Origin: Geodermatophilus marinus
Lineage (GTDB): Bacteria; Actinomycetota; Actinomycetes; Mycobacteriales; Geodermatophilaceae
DNA length: 64,000 nucleotides
Direction: 5' to 3'
Assembly (NCBI RefSeq): GCF_003428645.1
Contig: NZ_QVQH01000024.1
Location: 1 to 64,000, forward strand
Below the pieces are notes generated by a model, which saw only the letters and a list, made by a program, of their open reading frames with translations, did no database searches and had not been told where the DNA came from. Positions 1 through 9,888 of the stretch are shown here, one piece after another (position 1 is the stretch's first letter; each line of letters opens with the position of its first letter). The translations under genes were made by a program, and so were the position numbers.

Positions 1-834
1 TCGATCACCCCAATGGTGCGGGTCTCGACCCGGCCGTGGCCGACCGAACGGACCCGGGCGGCCTCGGGCACCTGCGCCCACGGCAGCGCCTTGAGCCGGG
101 TGTGCAGCGTCTTCTGGTTGCCCTTGATCCGCAGCATCCAGTGCGCGCCGCGGGAGCGCAGGTCGGCGGCCAGCTCCCGGGCGGTGAACCCGGCATCGAC
201 CGTGATCACCGAGTCGGCCAGCAGGCCGCGGTCATCGAGGATGGCGGCCAGCTCTGTGGCGGCGGCGACCTCACCGCCCCTGCCGGCCTCGGCTGAGCAG
301 GCGACCTGGCCGAGGGTGACCCCGCTGGCGTGGTCGTAGCCGGCGACCAGATGGGTGCGCCCGCCACCCTGGGCCGCGGCGGCACGCTGCTCGGGCGTGG
401 CGCGGGGCGCCGATCCGCGCAGCGTCTTGCCGTCGATAGCGATCACCCGCCGGCCGAGGTCGGCCGGCACCAGATCGACGGTCGCGCAGGCGGCCAGCGC
501 CTGCTGGGCGGTCAACCGGCCGACGGCCCAGCCGGCGACCGCCGCCCTGCGCAGCGGCCCACTCGCCGATCGCCACGTACGACGACGCCCCGGTCAGGCA
601 GGCGCACGCCGCGATCGCCAGCATTCCGATCAGCTCATGCCGCCGACCCCGGCGATGACGGGCGTCGGGCACCGCCGCCAACGCGGTGGCCAGCGACGAC
701 ATCGACGCCGCATCACCGGCGCCGAGCTCGGTGACCAGACTGGCGGCCAGGTGCGCGGGCAGCTCAGCGGGCAGCGTCACCGGCGCCCGTGCGGGCGCCT
801 GGTCGCTCACCGCGCGGGCAGGGGAAGATGCCAT
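1..834 (-). pseudogene. ISAs1-family transposase, frameshifted and cut by the window edge
   Basis: Two minus-strand frames together give an ISAs1-type transposase. The N-terminal part (834 to about 545) has the family opening, with DARHRRGRRHELIGMLAIAA and SSYVAIGEWAAA. The reading then continues in another frame from about 545 to the window start, with the DDE core IDGKTLRG, then VDAGFT and RIKGNQKTLHTR, and runs off the edge at VETRTIGVI. The linker between the N-terminal domain and the DGKTLRG motif is much shorter than usual, so there is probably an internal deletion as well as the frameshift. It is not expected to make an active protein. A sequencing indel is possible but would not explain the short linker. 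Confidence 0.8.
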
Positions 835-1168
835 CGCGGGTACGGGCTCTCACGGTCGGGGAAGGCTTCGACACCCTCATCCTGCGACCAGCCGGCCCGT
901 ACCCGTCCTCACTCCAAGATCAGTTCCTCATCGACGCAGGTCACCGTGGGTCAACACGACTTTGCCGACCCCCTGGGCCCAGGCCCACCTCGACGCCGGC
1001 ACCACTGACATGCCGATGGCCTTCCCGGTCATGGTGGACATCCCCCCAAGGCTCCGGCGTCCCGCACCAGCCTCCGGCAATCGCCGGCGGGCGCTCATGA
1101 GGCTTTCATCTAGCCCCGGCCGTCTCTACAGGCCATAACGCGCTACGAAAGAATGCCCAGAACCGAGT
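835..1168. other. intergenic stretch, no gene seen
   Basis: This is the gap between the transposase remnant and the 3' end of the tRNA. I see no convincing reading frame or RNA. It becomes less GC-rich towards the tRNA and marks the left edge of the lower-GC island. Confidence 0.5.
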
Positions 1169-1263
1169 TGGCGGAGGCGGACGGGAATCGAACCCGCCAG
1201 GCAGGATGAACTTGCCTCACTGGTTTTGAAGACCAGGCCGACCACCAGGTCGGGTACACCTCC
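1169..1263 (-). tRNA. selC: tRNA-Sec (anticodon UCA)
   Basis: On the minus strand this 95-nt stretch folds as a selenocysteine tRNA, which inserts Sec at UGA codons. The acceptor strand GGAGGTGT pairs with CCGCCTCC (one terminal mismatch in the long 8-bp stem), followed by discriminator G and an encoded CCA at 1169-1171. The anticodon stem CTGGT/ACCAG holds the loop CTTCAAA with anticodon UCA at 1227-1229. A long extra arm (GTGAGGCAAG to the T arm) and the TTCGAT T loop are present. Length, extended acceptor, large variable arm and UCA are diagnostic of tRNA-Sec rather than tRNA-Ser or a suppressor. A good promoter lies directly upstream. The gene points away from the two UGA-containing candidates nearby, which are its likely clients. 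Other sel genes must lie elsewhere. Confidence 0.95.
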
Positions 1264-1578
1264 ACGCTAGATCATAGCAGAATGCAAGCACGCTTTAAAG
1301 CATGTTGGCGCCCCTACGCCGAGCCGACGGCAGTGACACATCAGCCTCAGGACCATACCAGTGAGACGGGCCACGCCGAGACGACTATCGAAGATCCGAC
1401 ACGGTATCGCCCTGACGAGCTCCTCCGGCGCTGAAGGACCGAGAATCCCGGATCAGTGAAGCTCCGTTGGTATGTTCTACGTCGTCCAACAGTGACCGGC
1501 TTCAGGGCGCCACCCTAGACATGCCTCGATCCCGACGGACGTGTTCTCTACTGTGGCGCTATCCGGTAGACTCCAGAC
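1264..1578. other. divergent promoter region between tRNA-Sec and the AhpD-like gene
   Basis: No coding frame is convincing here. The left end holds the selC promoter. At the right end TAGACT (1567-1572) lies 6 nt before the ATG at 1579, the spacing of a leaderless actinobacterial promoter, which fits the absence of a Shine-Dalgarno sequence before that ATG. Confidence 0.5.
1271..1299 (-). promoter_or_regulatory. selC promoter
   Basis: Read on the minus strand, TTTAAA (1299-1294) and TATGAT (1276-1271) are separated by 17 nt. The -10 box ends 7 nt before the first base of the tRNA, as expected for direct tRNA transcription. The match is by eye. Confidence 0.6.
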
Positions 1579-2157
1579 ATGACATGGATAAAGGTGGAGT
1601 CGCCAGACGAGCACCCGGGAGTCGCCGACGCGATCGACCGTGCCACTGGCGCGTACCCACCTGGATACGACCCAAGCCGACGTGGCGAGCGTCGCCTTCC
1701 TTCTGTAGTGGCCAATGACAGCATCATCATGGCGCACTCGCTCATACCAGCCGCTCTCCAGCACATGATCGCCGGGTTTGGAGCCTTGATGTCACCCGAC
1801 TTGCCGTTGACGCGTCGGGAGCACGAACTTGTCGCCGCGACGACGTCGACCCTGAACCGGTGCTTCTATTGAATGGAGTCACACGCAGAGTTTCTGCGTC
1901 TTGTCACGATGGATGAGGGATTAGCCGAGGCGGTCAAGCGTGACTGGCGGGCCGCGCCACTCTCTGGCCGCGAGCGAGCGATGCTCGCCTATGTTGAAAA
2001 GCTCACCCTTGCACCTTCCAAGGTAGGGCGCGATGATGTCGACGCTCTCCGCGGGATGGGACTTGACGACCGCGGCGTCCTGCAGCTCAATCTTATTTGT
2101 TCGTGGTTCAATTACATCAATCGGGTCGCGGAAGGGTTAGGAGTCGGCCGCATGTGA
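1579..2157 (+). CDS. AhpD-like (CMD family, peroxidase-related) selenoprotein, Sec at residue 98
   Basis: Reading through the in-frame TGA at 1870-1872 gives one 192-residue protein of the carboxymuconolactone decarboxylase/AhpD superfamily, a thiol-based peroxidase-type enzyme. The AhpD active-site pattern Glu-x11-Cys-x2-Cys-x3-His is met exactly as Glu83, Cys95, Sec98 and His102, with UGA in place of the second cysteine codon (CFY-U-MESH). Sequence on both sides of the UGA is family-like: the N-terminal part alone would end at the active site, and the C-terminal part (GLDDRGVLQLNLICSWFNYI) is the usual helix pair. A hairpin with a GUU loop begins 11 nt after the UGA. The tRNA-Sec gene lies about 300 bp away, divergent. 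Translation is probably leaderless. The alternative, a nonsense mutation in a Cys gene, is unlikely given the tRNA and hairpin. Selenoprotein AhpD-like members are a known class. Confidence 0.9.
1883..1899 (+). promoter_or_regulatory. bacterial SECIS-like hairpin of the AhpD-like gene
   Basis: ACGCAGA (1883-1889) and TCTGCGT (1893-1899) pair perfectly around a GTT loop (1890-1892). The loop G is 18 nt after the UGA, inside the range used by bacterial SECIS elements. The GU in the apical loop matches what SelB recognises in known cases. It lies inside the coding sequence. Confidence 0.75.
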
Positions 2158-2475
2158 ATGGCGCACCCCCGAGGCGACAGGGTCAGCCGCCGTACCGCCA
2201 TGTGCAGCTCTCCAGCTGGACGAGACGGACGAGCGTGTCGTCGCTCGCAAGAGCCGAGAAAAACTTGAGCGCGCGGGGCTGCCGAGGTGCGCCACAGTGA
2301 TGCCACTTCAGCCTCGCGGGCAGTACCCTGTCTCCGCGGCGCAACGTCCGCCAGATGGGGGTGTGATTCGACATCTCGCGGTGCAGCTCACCTGTAGTCC
2401 TAAGCGAACCTCTGGCCCAATGCATGAGGTGACTTGCCTCCTGCGAGTACTAGCCGGCCACGGGCAATTGGCGTT
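2158..2475. other. intergenic stretch between convergent genes
   Basis: This gap separates the AhpD-like gene from the end of the JAMM gene on the other strand. I see no supported gene or strong terminator hairpin. Base composition remains island-like. Confidence 0.4.
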
Positions 2476-2916
2476 CTACCGGTCGGCCATCACCTCGACC
2501 GAAATCGGGTGTAGCGCGCCGCTATCGGTCAGCCAAGCGCCAGTCCGCCACAGTCGCCTACCGACCTCCTGTGACGCCACGACGAGATGGACGCAATTCC
2601 AGTCCATGGCGAAGACGCGATCGGCCGGCGACAAGATGGGAGTTCCGCCGGGGTGGGAGTGGTATATGCCCACGAGTTCTAGACCTCGGCGCTTCAGTCT
2701 CTGGATGCCGACGAATTGCTCGTAGGGGTCGGCAATGAAGACCCTTCCCTTCGCGAGATTCGTCAGGGGGACGGCGCACCGCGCCACCAAACGGCCACCC
2801 TCCTCATTTCCGCCGAGCAATCCGACCACTTCCCCAGCCCCTTGGCGCTCCGCATGCTGAACAACATGCGAAAGAACCGACTGAGGCAGTTGGAGTTGCC
2901 GTGGCCTCATCATCAC
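2476..2916 (-). CDS. JAMM/MPN+ metalloprotease (Prok-JAB type)
   Basis: This 146-residue protein is a stand-alone JAB/MPN zinc isopeptidase-like domain. The full metal site is visible: Glu29 in EVVGLLGG, then His86-Ser-His88-Pro, Ser96 and Asp99, fitting the HxHP-x6-SxxD pattern. Prokaryotic JAMM proteins typically cleave after ubiquitin-like or sulfur-carrier C termini or process small substrates; no such carrier is encoded nearby, so the substrate is unknown. The start is a GTG overlapping the stop of the upstream carotenoid-oxygenase-like gene, so the two are coupled in one operon. It is the last gene of the operon and ends in TAG. Confidence 0.85.
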   Translation of the reverse strand: MMMRPRQLQLPQSVLSHVVQHAERQGAGEVVGLLGGNEEGGRLVARCAVPLTNLAKGRVFIADPYEQFVGIQRLKRRGLELVGIYHSHPGGTPILSPADRVFAMDWNCVHLVVASQEVGRRLWRTGAWLTDSGALHPISVEVMADR

Positions 2917-4493
2917 AACTGAGCGAATACCATGTGCGGTGGATCTGGACGGAAGTGGGTGTCCCCCCAGGTGTGCAGCCGCGCACTAACGGCATGAGCC
3001 ACCACGCACTGGAGGTCGTCCGCTCGGTATATGCGCAGTCCGATCTCAGGCGAGAAGGTGCACACGAACGACCGAGCTGTGTCGCCAACCACTGCCATGG
3101 CAACTGGTTCGGCATAACTGAGGTACGAGCGTCTATCGTCATAATCCGGCTCCAACGTATCGGCGCGCAACCTCATCAGTAGGGGAGGCACGTAGCGCAT
3201 CCTGGCCATGTTTGCAACACGGTCGGGATATGCAGTTGCCACAAAATCAGGCAACAACCGAGGGTGAAAGCCGCTGAAACTCGCGAAGACGAACTCTCCC
3301 GAGGGATCGATGTCGAGGTTGATCGGAAGCCAGGTGTGGCCGTGCGAGGTGCGTCGGAAGTCGTACGCGCGCTGCAGGCGGCCAATGGAACTCTTCCCGC
3401 CTCTACGCTCGTACCGCATTACCATCCCTGTGTTGAGGGGCTCGATGAGCATTCCGGCGTAGTGCTCCAGGACATTGTCTGGAGACTCCCCGTAACAATT
3501 GACGCCCTGCGTCTCCTCGGCAACGTCGGCTTCCTTAAAGTTTGCATACAGGACGAAGCCATCACCGGAGCGGGCATCACAGTCAAGGTGCGAGAGGGCC
3601 AAGCCGTTCATCTCCCGTACGCCAGGAAGGAGCTGGGCTTGGATAGTGTGTGCCGTTTCATCAATCTCGAGAGACCAGATCGTGGACGGCTTCATCGGCT
3701 CGAGCGTTCGGTCTTCTTCCGTGCGTCTGTACGGGGAAAGATGCTCGATCACTGCTCCTGTCTTCAACAGGCCCACGAAGCGTCTGCCCGCTTCCTCGTA
3801 GTAGAACGCGGAATGAAAGTTCGCTCCCTCCAGCGCGTCATCGTCCTGCGGCGGAACGATCGACCACGTCCGAGCGTCACTCGTCCTGGTGTCTAGCTGT
3901 ATCAGCTTCAATTCCGCTGTCTGAACGGGGGATTCGCGCCGCTCCCGCGTTAAGAGCGACTGGTGGAAGTAGGCGTAGCGTCGGTCGAGGCTTATGGCAA
4001 AGTGTGCCGTTGTCGTAACCTGTGGCGCCTGTTCGTCCAGGTCCACGTAACGCAGCACACGGGTAGGATCCCACCGCTTAAGATCTACCTCGAGCGGTGC
4101 GCCATACATGAGATTGGTGAACCAGCCTGTGGAACCGACGATGGTGACACCGTGATTGGGTTGAGTGGCGTAGAAGGGGCCGCATCCTCCTCCTCCAGGA
4201 AGGTCTGCAGCCCGTGGATCTACGGGCATGATGTGAGCGAGAACCCGCCCCGGACGACCCGGCGTTAGGTCGAGTCTGAGCAGGTCCGCTTGCGAGTCAT
4301 GCCAGCGCGCGAACTTCTTCTGGTCCTTATGTCTCCGACTCATGGGAACGAAGAGAGACCCGTCAAACTCGGCAGGTATCTCACCTCGCACCATGAGCTC
4401 GATCCCCTCGAGGCACGTGGCGGTCGTCATCGATAGCCCCTTCTTGCGGGAGACGCGTGGTCCTGCGGCTGTGACGCGTTCTCCACTGCTCAT
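2913..4493 (-). CDS. carotenoid-oxygenase-like (RPE65/CCD family) protein
   Basis: The 526-residue protein resembles carotenoid cleavage dioxygenases, beta-propeller enzymes that hold Fe(II) with four histidines and split conjugated or stilbene double bonds. Family features are the opening GEIPAEFDGSLFVPM and plausible iron ligands at His164 (TAHFAISLD), His227 (ANFHSAFY), His302 (LSHLDCD) and a C-terminal His507 or His513. HGHTWLPINLDIDPSGEFVF (from 384) is also typical of the fold. The ATG overlaps the stop of the preceding cistron as ATGA. A second ATG at codon 22 is an alternative start. Divergence from textbook members is large, so the substrate cannot be assigned. The gene is about 55-60% GC, below the window norm. 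Confidence 0.7.
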   Translation of the reverse strand: MSSGERVTAAGPRVSRKKGLSMTTATCLEGIELMVRGEIPAEFDGSLFVPMSRRHKDQKKFARWHDSQADLLRLDLTPGRPGRVLAHIMPVDPRAADLPGGGGCGPFYATQPNHGVTIVGSTGWFTNLMYGAPLEVDLKRWDPTRVLRYVDLDEQAPQVTTTAHFAISLDRRYAYFHQSLLTRERRESPVQTAELKLIQLDTRTSDARTWSIVPPQDDDALEGANFHSAFYYEEAGRRFVGLLKTGAVIEHLSPYRRTEEDRTLEPMKPSTIWSLEIDETAHTIQAQLLPGVREMNGLALSHLDCDARSGDGFVLYANFKEADVAEETQGVNCYGESPDNVLEHYAGMLIEPLNTGMVMRYERRGGKSSIGRLQRAYDFRRTSHGHTWLPINLDIDPSGEFVFASFSGFHPRLLPDFVATAYPDRVANMARMRYVPPLLMRLRADTLEPDYDDRRSYLSYAEPVAMAVVGDTARSFVCTFSPEIGLRIYRADDLQCVVAHAVSARLHTWGDTHFRPDPPHMVFAQL

Positions 4494-5467
4494 CAGCCGC
4501 TGGCCCTCTCAGGCGGTACGTCTTCGGCGCGTAGGCCTTCCTTCGGCGTCTCGCCGATGAAGGTCCTCCGGTAGTACGCTTGGTGGTCCAGCCGGACCCA
4601 TCCCTCCGACGAGAGCGGCAGATAGGGATGGGAGACGTCGGTGGGTTCGAGGGTGAGCAAGTGCTCGACGTGGGACGTAGTGCGGTAGAGCCCACCGAAG
4701 AGCGGTTTGTCCATCCACTCGATCTGCGATGAGGGAAATGTCATGCGCAAGCATGCGGCCTGCATGAAGACTGGCTCCCCGTTGGCTGACGGACGCCCCG
4801 GGGCGTACATGTTGCTTTGTACAACTTCGCCTTGGGCTAGGCGTCGGACCATGTGTTCCAGGGTGCTCGGGAAGCAGCCTGCGTCGTGGAGCAGGAGCCA
4901 GAAGACAAGGTCCCGCGTCGAGTAGAAGAAGTTGTAGTTGTACAGTTCGACCGGCTGGATCTCTCCTAGTGCCGCCCACTGGGGGAGAGCCGCGAGGCCG
5001 TCCCCAAGCTGTCTTGTCAGCCGATCGAGGGCATCGGCTGGGAGCACCGAGAACTCGGTGTCTGCTGGGAAGGGACCCATCAGATTGAAGTGACTGCCGA
5101 CGCCTCCCATGACCAAACGACCCAAACGGGTCATGGTCCGGCCATCGTGGATGTGAATGAGCTCCTTGGCGACGACATCAGCAGCCGCCCTCTGCGCGAA
5201 GACCTCGGGTACCTCGCTGAAGTCGAACTTGGCAGCTTCTAACGCTCTGACGCGGTCCTCGGTCTCGCGAACCAGGCGGACGAACTCTGGGCCTTCAACT
5301 GAAGCCCGGTTAACGGCCATTCAATATTGCCAGGCCCCCACCATGGGTACGTACTCGTCGTCCAACCATGAGGCAAAGGCCGGGTCGGCCTCGAGCAGTG
5401 CTCGGTTCGATTCTCTGTACGCGACGACCAGCTTCAGGACCGACTCGCGGTACGCACTCTCGTTCAT
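4493..5467 (-). CDS. candidate novel selenoprotein, Sec at residue 49 (or two cistrons of 48 and 275 aa)
   Basis: An ATG at 5467 with a strong GGAGGAG site 5 nt upstream opens a 48-residue frame that stops at TGA (5323-5321). The same frame continues without a break for 275 codons to 4493. Read through, it is a 324-residue protein with Sec49 in the context AWQY-U-MAVNR. An SECIS-like hairpin lies 14-32 nt after the UGA. The ATG just after the TGA has no ribosome site at normal spacing, which argues against independent initiation, although stop-start re-initiation remains possible. I do not recognise the family. Visible features are an acidic, helical N-terminal segment, KELIHIHDGRT, a Gly-rich LVMGGVGSHFNLMG stretch, aromatic-rich VELYNYNFFYSTRDLVFW and two cysteines. 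It heads an operon with the CCD-like and JAMM genes. Confidence 0.6.
5289..5307 (-). promoter_or_regulatory. SECIS-like hairpin after the UGA at 5321-5323
   Basis: On the minus strand GGGCTTCA (5307-5300) pairs with TGAA plus GCCC (5297-5294 and 5292-5289) with one bulged G at 5293. The apical loop is GT, or AGTT if the closing A-T opens. The loop G is 22 nt after the UGA. A bulge in the upper stem and a GU apex both resemble known bacterial SECIS elements. Confidence 0.55.
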
Positions 5468-5802
5468 CGTCTCTCCTCCGCTCGTACGAGGATTGTGGCA
5501 GTCCACCGTCACCGATGCGTCACCGATGCGTCACCGTCGCACGATGCCGAGACTCGCTGAGGCGACCCGGCGAGTCGAGAGGCTCCAGTCTTGAGGAGGA
5601 TTGAGTGGTCGCCGGTCGGAACACGTTCTATTCGCGGCAGCCTCGGGGTCGGGTCGGGCGCGGTCCCTACGTCCAGGTCGGATTGCGCGGCCGGGCGGAG
5701 GTGAGGCGGTCGGTCGCGAAGCAGCTCGGGATCGGCTGCACTGGAGCATCCCCGTCGGCTGAACACCTCCAGACTTGGCGCAAGCCAGGGAGGAGAGCCC
5801 GG
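5468..5802. other. promoter region of the island operon and start of IS debris
   Basis: No gene is supported here. The left part is the leader and promoter of the minus-strand operon, including the tandem repeat. The right part has short stretches resembling the middle of IS3 OrfA (VAKQLGIG), out of order with the next fragment. Confidence 0.4.
5507..5536. repeat. tandem 11-bp repeat CGTCACCGATG in the operon promoter region
   Basis: CGTCACCGATG occurs twice head to tail (5507-5517, 5518-5528), followed by the partial copy CGTCACCG (5529-5536). It sits 40-70 bp upstream of the start of the island operon. An 11-bp period is one helical turn, so it may be an activator or repressor site. Confidence 0.6.
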
Positions 5803-5958: not shown

Positions 5959-6181
5959 GCAGCGCTCATCTGCTGACATCAGCTTTGGCGAGAGGTTCCC
6001 GCCGGTCACCTCCGCCGCCGGGAGAGGACCTTGGCAGCGTGGCCTTCGAGGTCCAGCGGCAGACCCGTCCCTCCCGGCGGCGGCGGGCTTGGTACTGGCC
6101 AGTTGGAGTCGTGCCTCAAGCACCGAGATGAGCGTCCAGCCGCGCCGGCCACGGGGTGACCGGACTCGAAGGGCCAGGTGC

Positions 6182-6834
6182 ATGGGGAACAGCAACACGA
6201 TCGATCTCAGCGTCGAGGAGGTCTTCATCGGCATCGACTGGGGCGCCAGCCACAATCAACTCTGCGCGGTCAACGCCACCGGAGCGCGGCTACGGCAGGT
6301 CCGCGTGGGCCACGACGTCGCCGGCCCCTACCAGCTCGATGCCGAGTTCGCCCGGCTGGGAACCGGCCTGCCGATCCGCGTGGAACGCGCCGAGGGCCTG
6401 CTGGTCGAGCGGCTGCAGGCCGGCGGGCACCGCGTCTTCCCGGTCAATCCGCGGATCGCCGTCCGCGCTCGCGAGCGCTACCGGGTGGCCAGCAGCAAAG
6501 ACGACGTCTTCGACGCCTTCACTCTGGCCGACACCCTGCGCCATGAACACGCGCACTGGCGACCCCTGCCCGTTGCCTCGCCGGCGCTGGCCGAGCGGCG
6601 CGCGGTTTCCCGCGACCGGGATCGATTGCTGGAGTTGCAGCAGCGCGTCGAGGCGCAACTGCACGCCATCCTGGACACTTATCACCCGGCGCCGGCGCAG
6701 TTGCTCTCCTCGATCGACCGGGACATCACGCTGGCCTTCATCGCCGACTATCCGACCCCGCAGGCCGCCGCCCGCATCGGCGCGCAGCGGATGGCCGCTT
6801 TCTGCCGGCGGCAGTTGTCTCGCCCCGAGTTCAG
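6182..6834 (+). pseudogene. IS110-family transposase, N-terminal part only
   Basis: The frame begins at ATG 6182 (MGNSNTIDLS) and encodes the DEDD RuvC-like N-terminal half of an IS110 transposase: FIGIDWGASHNQLC with the first Asp, then VNPRIAVRARERYRVASSKDD and DAFTLADTLRH with later acidic residues. It is cut at 6834 by the left end of the IS3 element, and the reading frame ends by chance at 6865 inside that element. The C-terminal serine-containing Transposase_20 half is missing, so it is inactive. Confidence 0.85.
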
Positions 6835-7153
6835 TGGAGGCTCGGAACTGACGCGGCGACGGTAGTCGCCGCGGGGTGGTGCCGGTAGAAGGTGTCCTCG
6901 TGCTCGGCCGGTGGGATCAGACCGATCTCGCCATGCAGGCGTCGGTGGTTGAACCAGTCGATGTACTCGGCGGTGGCGAACTCGAGGTCGTCGATGCCCT
7001 TCCAGGGGCCCCGGTTGCGCACCAGCTCGGCCTTGAACAGCGAGTTGAACGCCTCGGCCAGCGCGTTGTCGTAGGAGTCGCCGGTGGAACCGACCGAGGC
7101 GACCGCGCCGGCCTCGGCGAGGCGCTGGGTGTAGCGCACCGCGAGGTACTGCC

Positions 7154-9531
<2,378 letters not shown>

Positions 9532-9570
9532 GAATCTCATCCTCCGTGGATTGAGAGCCTCCATCAGACC

Positions 9571-9888
9571 CGGGGCGAGACAGACCGGGTGCTGGCCGAT
9601 CGCGCCTACTCCGGCCGCGGCAACCGCGCCTACCTGCGTCGACGCGGTATCCCGGCGACCATTCCGAACAAGGTCGACCAGCTTGCCCACCGCCGCGCGA
9701 AGGGCTCGGCCGGTGGCCGGCCGCCGGCGTTCGACCGGGAGCGGCACGCCGTGGAGTGCGGCATCAACCGGCACAAGCAGAACCGCGCGTTCGCCACGCG
9801 ATACGACAAGCTCGCCGTCCGCTATGACGCCACCGTCGAGATCACCAACATCAACATCTATCTGCGCGACTTATCAAACAGGGCCTAG
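9571..9888 (+). pseudogene. IS5-type transposase, C-terminal fragment
   Basis: The plus-strand frame reads VLADRAYSGRGNRAYLRRRG, the conserved second-Asp region of IS5/DDE_Tnp_1 transposases. It continues with NRHKQNRAFATRYDKLAVRY, which contains the final acidic-region signature, and ends at TAG 9888. The N-terminal two thirds are missing; the junction is where the IS3 inserted. Confidence 0.8.

Follow-up and report, generated by a model that had tools for sequence, protein, structure and literature searches.

How could a UGA codon be read as selenocysteine (Sec) in a bacterium that appears to spell Sec as UAG? The question is raised by the first kilobases of the window (the whole 64,000-nucleotide stretch of Geodermatophilus marinus DNA analysed here), where a tRNA-Sec gene with the anticodon UCA stands next to an AhpD-like gene interrupted by an in-frame UGA (Table 1). 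We argue below that the two probably arrived together on mobile DNA and that the Sec machinery of the host could serve both codons.

Table 1. Features of the window around the UGA-containing gene (window coordinates)
Feature	Position	Strand	Basis or remark
Transposase remnant at contig edge, two overlapping frames	3..834	-	3-515 DDE_Tnp_1; other frame 271-834
Foreign low-GC island core	1100..5600		61% GC vs 76% for 15000-64000
tRNA-Sec, anticodon UCA (1227-1229), CCA encoded, G73	1169..1263	-	ARAGORN, Rfam RF01852, fold
Divergent intergenic region between tRNA-Sec and selenoprotein gene	1264..1578		315 bp
AhpD-like/peroxidase-related (TIGR01926) predicted selenoprotein gene, 192 residues, E83...C95-x-x-U98-x-x-x-H102	1579..2157	+	Profiles, homologues
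In-frame UGA (predicted Sec98), second catalytic cysteine position	1870..1872	+	Codon alignment
Candidate SECIS hairpin ACGCAG-AGUUU-CUGCGU, starting 10 nt after UGA; the A-U that closes the loop may be paired	1883..1899	+	Codon constraint, pairing
Cargo, 146-aa JAB/MPN-domain protein	2476..2916	-	Pfam Prok-JAB, 63.2 bits
Cargo, 526-aa protein	2913..4493	-	No Pfam or NCBIfam match at E 0.001
Cargo, 275-aa protein	4493..5320	-	No Pfam or NCBIfam match at E 0.001
IS110-type transposase, right flank	6089..6865	+	Profile match
IS3-type element (HTH_21/rve, HTH_Tnp_1), split by another IS	6816..9774	-	Profiles, genome copies
Inserted IS with HTH_38/rve transposase, breaking the IS3-type element at about 7150	7149-8620		Profile match

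The UGA-containing AhpD-like gene

The frame contains a single TGA, at codon 98. Read through, it gives a product that scores 112.6 bits against TIGR01926 ("peroxidase-related enzyme"; cut-off 81.8; residues 51–189) and 28.2 bits against Pfam CMD (cut-off 23; residues 58–139), and both matches span the TGA. The 192-residue product that a first-pass annotation had proposed from the window alone is therefore AhpD/CMD-like on both sides of the codon, and the active-site residues it had named (Glu83, Cys95, position 98 and His102) were all located at those positions, in the Glu...Cys-x-x-Cys/Sec-x-x-x-His spacing that we take to be the AhpD active-site motif. As it had also warned, the gene escapes normal annotation, a plain ORF listing splitting it at the UGA.

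Position 98 was compared across 107 homologous loci, comprising that of the window, 66 on named contigs, and the best 29 and best 11 of longer lists. The codon is covered in 104 of them and reads TGA in 78 (window included), TGC in 25 and TGT in one, so that the position is predicted Sec or Cys in all 104, the conservation that the first-pass annotation had expected. The named-contig set is drawn largely from Acidobacteria MAGs, with some Planctomycetes, Gemmatimonadetes and others. Codon 98 is covered in 63 of its 66 loci, with TGA in 62 and TGC in one (L060); 60 of the 63 have 44–59% identity and three have 33–37%. Solved relatives with Cys at this site are 2oyo and 6k40. A chance ORF was ruled out as an explanation of the frame by the TIGR01926 match across the TGA, the TGA in 78 of 104 loci and the codon constraint of the hairpin described below. 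The product is most likely an AhpD-type peroxide-detoxifying protein, an activity ascribed from its family, in which Sec would replace the second cysteine of the CxxC motif.

A search of the neighbours at the 66 named-contig loci gave no conserved operon partner for the AhpD-like gene. The largest neighbour cluster consists of ORFs of about 155 aa in 29 loci; at L066 such an ORF lies on the opposite strand and overlaps the AhpD gene. The next cluster, in 15 of 66 loci, is presumably permease-like, judging by its sequence. None of the 66 loci carries a tRNA-Sec within the flank covered, which extends up to 5 kb and is often shorter.

A candidate SECIS hairpin downstream of the UGA

In the window gene, codons 102–107 read CAC GCA GAG TTT CTG CGT. 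Among 60 homologues of at least 43% identity, these six rank lowest in synonymous diversity out of 138 codons that could be tested, at 0–0.10 of expectation compared with a median of 0.90. The inner five pairs of the hairpin are intact in all 62 TGA genes of the named-contig set, with two-sided changes at one pair in two genes and at another pair in one; 59 of the 62 retain the outermost pair. Given this codon constraint and pair retention, the hairpin looks as a bacterial SECIS should. Folding energy is of no use as a SECIS test here: that of the hairpin is ordinary (z −0.42), and the mean energy downstream of the codon (−13.1 kcal/mol in TGA genes, −15.6 kcal/mol in Cys homologues) fails to tell the two groups apart. 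The inner five pairs are also retained in 4 of 26 Cys homologues. Among the matches listed from a phylum search, none of 15 TGA homologues has this hairpin at the same offset, and the element is thus established only for the subgroup to which the window gene belongs.

The named-contig locus with TGC at the Sec codon, on Latescibacterota contig SICM01000011.1 (L060:5001-5564), has the SECIS hairpin intact. Reading of this UGC as Sec was considered and set aside, as the sole tRNA-Sec over the cut-off in that genome has the anticodon UCA; a fossil SECIS left after Sec-to-Cys replacement is more likely.

The tRNA-Sec of the window

That the window holds a bona fide tRNA-Sec, as first claimed, is borne out by an ARAGORN call and by a full-length RF01852 match of 81.8 bits (gathering score 47). 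The molecule has a D stem of 6 bp, a long variable arm and G73. Its predicted fold (−44.3 kcal/mol, z −3.5) has paired helices, which together with the high Rfam score rule out a tRNA pseudogene. The divergent arrangement with the AhpD-like gene and the gap of 315 bp were likewise described correctly by the first-pass annotation (1169–1263 on the minus strand, 1579–2157 on the plus strand).

The host machinery and its native UAG code

The window begins at the start of contig C17 in a genome of 5.23 Mb and 71 contigs. A comparison of the window with the host SelA, SelB and SelD gave nothing at E 1e-8. The first-pass annotation had made its case depend on selA, selB and selD being present somewhere in the genome, and all three lie on contig C11, each above its curated cut-off. 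The host SelB is a protein of 591 aa with a wing-3 domain. Its gene (L108:6658-8484, minus strand) apparently ends in TAG, also the Sec codon of this lineage.

A second tRNA-Sec gene lies on C11 between selA and selD. It scores 65.3 bits in Rfam and has the anticodon CUA; ARAGORN labels it "tRNA-Pyl", whereas Rfam identifies it as tRNA-Sec. On contig C70, the gene of the formate dehydrogenase alpha subunit (FdhA) is interrupted by a TAG within the motif RI*HSATV. Beyond the TAG the frame runs on for 924 codons until a TGA, and a hairpin with a GGUCU loop follows the TAG. This loop and the AGUUU loop of the AhpD-like gene both fit RGUYU. The CUA tRNA-Sec and the UAG-containing formate dehydrogenase together indicate that the native system spells Sec as UAG. 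Judged by its genes, then, the host lineage is one that uses UAG for Sec, a point that a view limited to the window had missed. Because the tRNA-Sec of the host itself reads UAG, the tRNA of the window is the only tRNA-Sec found in the genome that would be able to read UGA.

UAG-encoded selenocysteine in Geodermatophilaceae was reportedly described by Mukai et al. in 2016. The available part of the Secmarker paper gives a CUA tRNA-Sec in three Geodermatophilaceae genomes (PMC5330540). G. marinus resembles these UAG-Sec systems in its CUA tRNA-Sec, its UAG formate dehydrogenase and the downstream SECIS, and differs from those described in having an additional tRNA-Sec(UCA) and a UGA selenoprotein gene.

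AhpD-related genes with an in-frame TAG were also seen in this family. One, in G404 (L286:511-1485, minus strand), matches NF041238 at 238 bits (cut-off 175) and has its TAG at the same CFYU position, which means that at least one AhpD-type candidate selenoprotein in the family uses UAG and the imported one UGA. Two further family hits with TAG, in G400 and G480, are among the matches listed.

A probable switch from UGA to UAG in the family

A tRNA-Sec search of 112 family genomes with stricter filters, in which genes of 64–82 bits were taken, gave 110 genes from 108 genomes, 102 with CUA and 8 with UCA. No tRNA-Sec gene in this range was found in the other four (G462, G466, G492 and G493). 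One hundred of the 108 genomes have CUA only and seven have UCA only; both anticodons occur in G. marinus alone. With G. marinus included, 101 of the 108 carry the CUA tRNA-Sec that PMC5330540 reports for Geodermatophilaceae. The fragmented genome G432 has two tRNA-Sec copies, both CUA. The seven UCA-only genomes (G461, G463-G465 and G467-G469; loci L127-L132 and L135) come from three genera and help to place the switch from UGA to UAG.

Of 61 loci offered for the SelA tree, 33 gave a usable SelA; among the others, 27 lacked a match and in one the sequence was too short. A branch with support 100/99 separates all 21 CUA rows from four UCA members of the family, which join UCA rows of another family from the same order. 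The support for this grouping is weak (86/65), and SelA alone therefore does not place the switch within the family. The SelD tree (27 rows, with five short rows dropped) contains no UCA family member and has all 16 CUA rows on one side, with support 93/91. The simplest reading of these sequences is a single switch from UGA to UAG.

A foreign island flanked by insertion sequences

The AhpD-like gene, its tRNA and three cargo genes lie within a stretch of low GC (Table 1). The GC3 of four island genes is 67–75%, compared with 98–99% for three host genes on C11. When 11 candidate places were scored in each of 25 congeners, positions 1000–5600 gave no DNA match except the conserved 3' end of the tRNA and pieces of the right edge, the latter a match of 38–44 bases in three of the 25. 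The cargo genes are tightly packed (2476-5320, minus strand).

To the left lies a transposase remnant, and the left end of the island runs off the contig. On the right, an IS110-type transposase precedes an IS3-type element that is itself broken by another IS. An ALIL pseudoknot (RF01497, 65.8 bits) lies at 9125-9253 on the minus strand; such pseudoknots are a frameshift signal of IS3-type elements. A scan of ten proteins gave transposases and no phage-type integrase. Foreign composition, patchy distribution and flanking IS are traits of a mobile element, and the description of the island as mobile-looking holds up: its GC and GC3 are foreign, it is flanked by IS and it is nearly absent from the 25 congeners.

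Occurrence in a single genome, near a contig end and among IS remnants, means that the cassette may be a recent arrival, its gene and tRNA intact and neither of them expressed nor used. The cassette was found in one of the 108 family genomes with a strong tRNA-Sec, it lies near the contig edge by a broken transposase in an IS-rich stretch, and it retains foreign codon usage, all of which such an arrival would show. Against this, the frame, the active-site residues, the UGA, the hairpin and the tRNA helices are all intact, and we regard an unused cassette as an unlikely, if not negligible, explanation.

Far less probable is an assembly chimaera or contamination in which the first ~6 kb would derive from another organism. 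GC and codon usage are far from those of the host, C17 starts at window position 1, and the island is joined to the remaining contig via repeated IS, where assemblies can misjoin. However, this genome has further copies, of 94–99% identity, of both the IS3-type element and the IS inserted into it on contigs other than C17 (the former undivided on C44, the latter on C56), and with IS copies thus resident, a misjoin at an IS would most simply still leave the island in this genome. Stretches at 10.0–14.9 kb match congeners at 76–92%, partly as repeats, and the listed contamination figure is 0.02; both also speak against a chimaera. Six long ORFs, listed mechanically from the remainder of the contig, have a GC3 of 56–97%, which is no gauge of contig origin.

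Origin of the island tRNA

The island tRNA shares 66.7% identity with the native CUA tRNA and 71–73% with the UCA tRNAs from the seven UCA-only family genomes, whereas the native CUA tRNA is 85–92% identical to those same seven. Its closest UCA relative in the compared set, at 79% identity, comes from another actinobacterial family. The low identity to both the native and the family UCA tRNAs argues that the island tRNA is not a leftover of the old code. Internal duplication of the native CUA gene followed by reversion of the anticodon would account for the final 30 nt, which are identical in the two tRNAs, and can practically be dismissed, as other genomes of the phylum (e.g. G009 and G145) have this 3' stretch at 100% identity and the overall identity of the two tRNAs is below that of the island tRNA to many UCA tRNAs of the phylum.

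A proposed cassette of a codon and its decoder

We are fairly confident that the island carries a horizontally acquired cassette in which a UGA codon travels with its decoder, a selenoprotein gene with its own tRNA, to be run by the SelA, SelB and SelD of the host. At the level of sequence, a UAG-Sec gene and a UGA-Sec gene, each with its own tRNA, coexist in this one genome: both tRNAs, both apparently recoded genes, both candidate hairpins, a single set of selA, selB and selD, and a foreign island are all in the assembly. It is likely that this one genome uses two Sec codons, UAG through the native tRNA and UGA through the imported one, served by that single set of proteins.

We propose that a foreign island brought the UGA-containing AhpD-like gene and its tRNA-Sec(UCA) into a clade already using UAG. 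By established decoding rules a CUA anticodon cannot pair with UGA. Had the gene arrived without the island tRNA, its product would therefore stop at residue 97; this dependence would explain why the two genes are linked at 315 bp. SerRS is universal, and that of the host would charge the island tRNA with serine. SelA of the host, with selenophosphate made by SelD, would then convert the serine to Sec on the tRNA. The single SelB is predicted to recognise the SECIS hairpin and the acceptor/T region, not the anticodon, and would place Sec at UGA98 beside the ACGCAG-AGUUU-CUGCGU hairpin, just as the same proteins would place Sec at the UAG of the native formate dehydrogenase beside its GGUCU-loop hairpin.

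In the parts of the literature available to us, SerRS is described as ignoring the anticodon of tRNA-Sec (PMC6267555), and tRNA-Sec with a changed anticodon is functional in Escherichia coli (PMC10778597). This independence of the anticodon and the last 30 nt shared with the native tRNA suggest that the host proteins should accept the island tRNA. We infer that the island gene is expressed, that its tRNA is charged and that Sec is inserted at UGA98.

Relation to known systems

AhpD-like CxxU selenoproteins of TIGR01926 are tabulated in the available portion of PMC13188914. The window gene shares their NCBIfam family and motif; what sets it apart is the link to a tRNA-Sec in a UAG-Sec host. Mobile tRNA-Sec(UCA) genes near a selenoprotein gene also occur on Arthrobacter pYA7-1a and Tsukamurella plasmid 17, where the selenoprotein gene is in an fdh operon. 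Those plasmids carry selB-selA-tRNA-selD-fdh together, whereas the cassette has only the tRNA and one selenoprotein gene and would have to borrow the proteins of the host. Among genomes with at least two tRNA-Sec genes, Table 3 of PMC5330540, in the portion available, gives no second anticodon and includes no Geodermatophilaceae. The available parts of the literature searched for two-codon Sec, which includes PMC5330540, PMC13188914, PMC7609411, PMC10778597 and PMC6267555, gave no genome using both UAG and UGA for Sec; the 2016 Sec-recoding paper could contain such a case.

The meaning of a codon is usually seen as a property of the genome, and here mobile DNA appears to import its own meaning for UGA. 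If our reading is correct, a tRNA and one gene would form a minimal unit of genetic code that is portable and could return a codon meaning to a lineage that had stopped using it. Such a unit would explain why a tRNA-Sec moves together with a selenoprotein gene, would show how foreign genes can get past a genetic-code barrier, and would supply a two-codon Sec system that is ready for use. Whether SelA and SelB disregard the anticodon in vivo could also be tested on this natural case. Both halves of it tend to be hidden from plain ORF lists and tRNA callers, the gene being split at the UGA and the native tRNA called tRNA-Pyl.

Possible sources of the cassette

A phage origin was considered and found no support: the tRNA has no match in the set "phages", and the set viral_contigs gave neither a relative of the AhpD-like protein nor an exact match to the tRNA pattern. 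The island tRNA matches seven plasmid records; of three that were examined, two are sel clusters and one is unannotated. The AhpD-like protein matches 327 plasmid records, all below 60% identity. A direct donor of the cassette was not found in the genomes, plasmid set and viral sets searched. In another member of the phylum (G111, L294:3023-7739), one sel locus holds selA, selB and a tRNA-Sec together with an AhpD-like gene that has a TGA; this gene is on the other strand and lies between selB and the tRNA-Sec. An arrangement of this kind could be the sort from which such a pair of tRNA and gene was excised.
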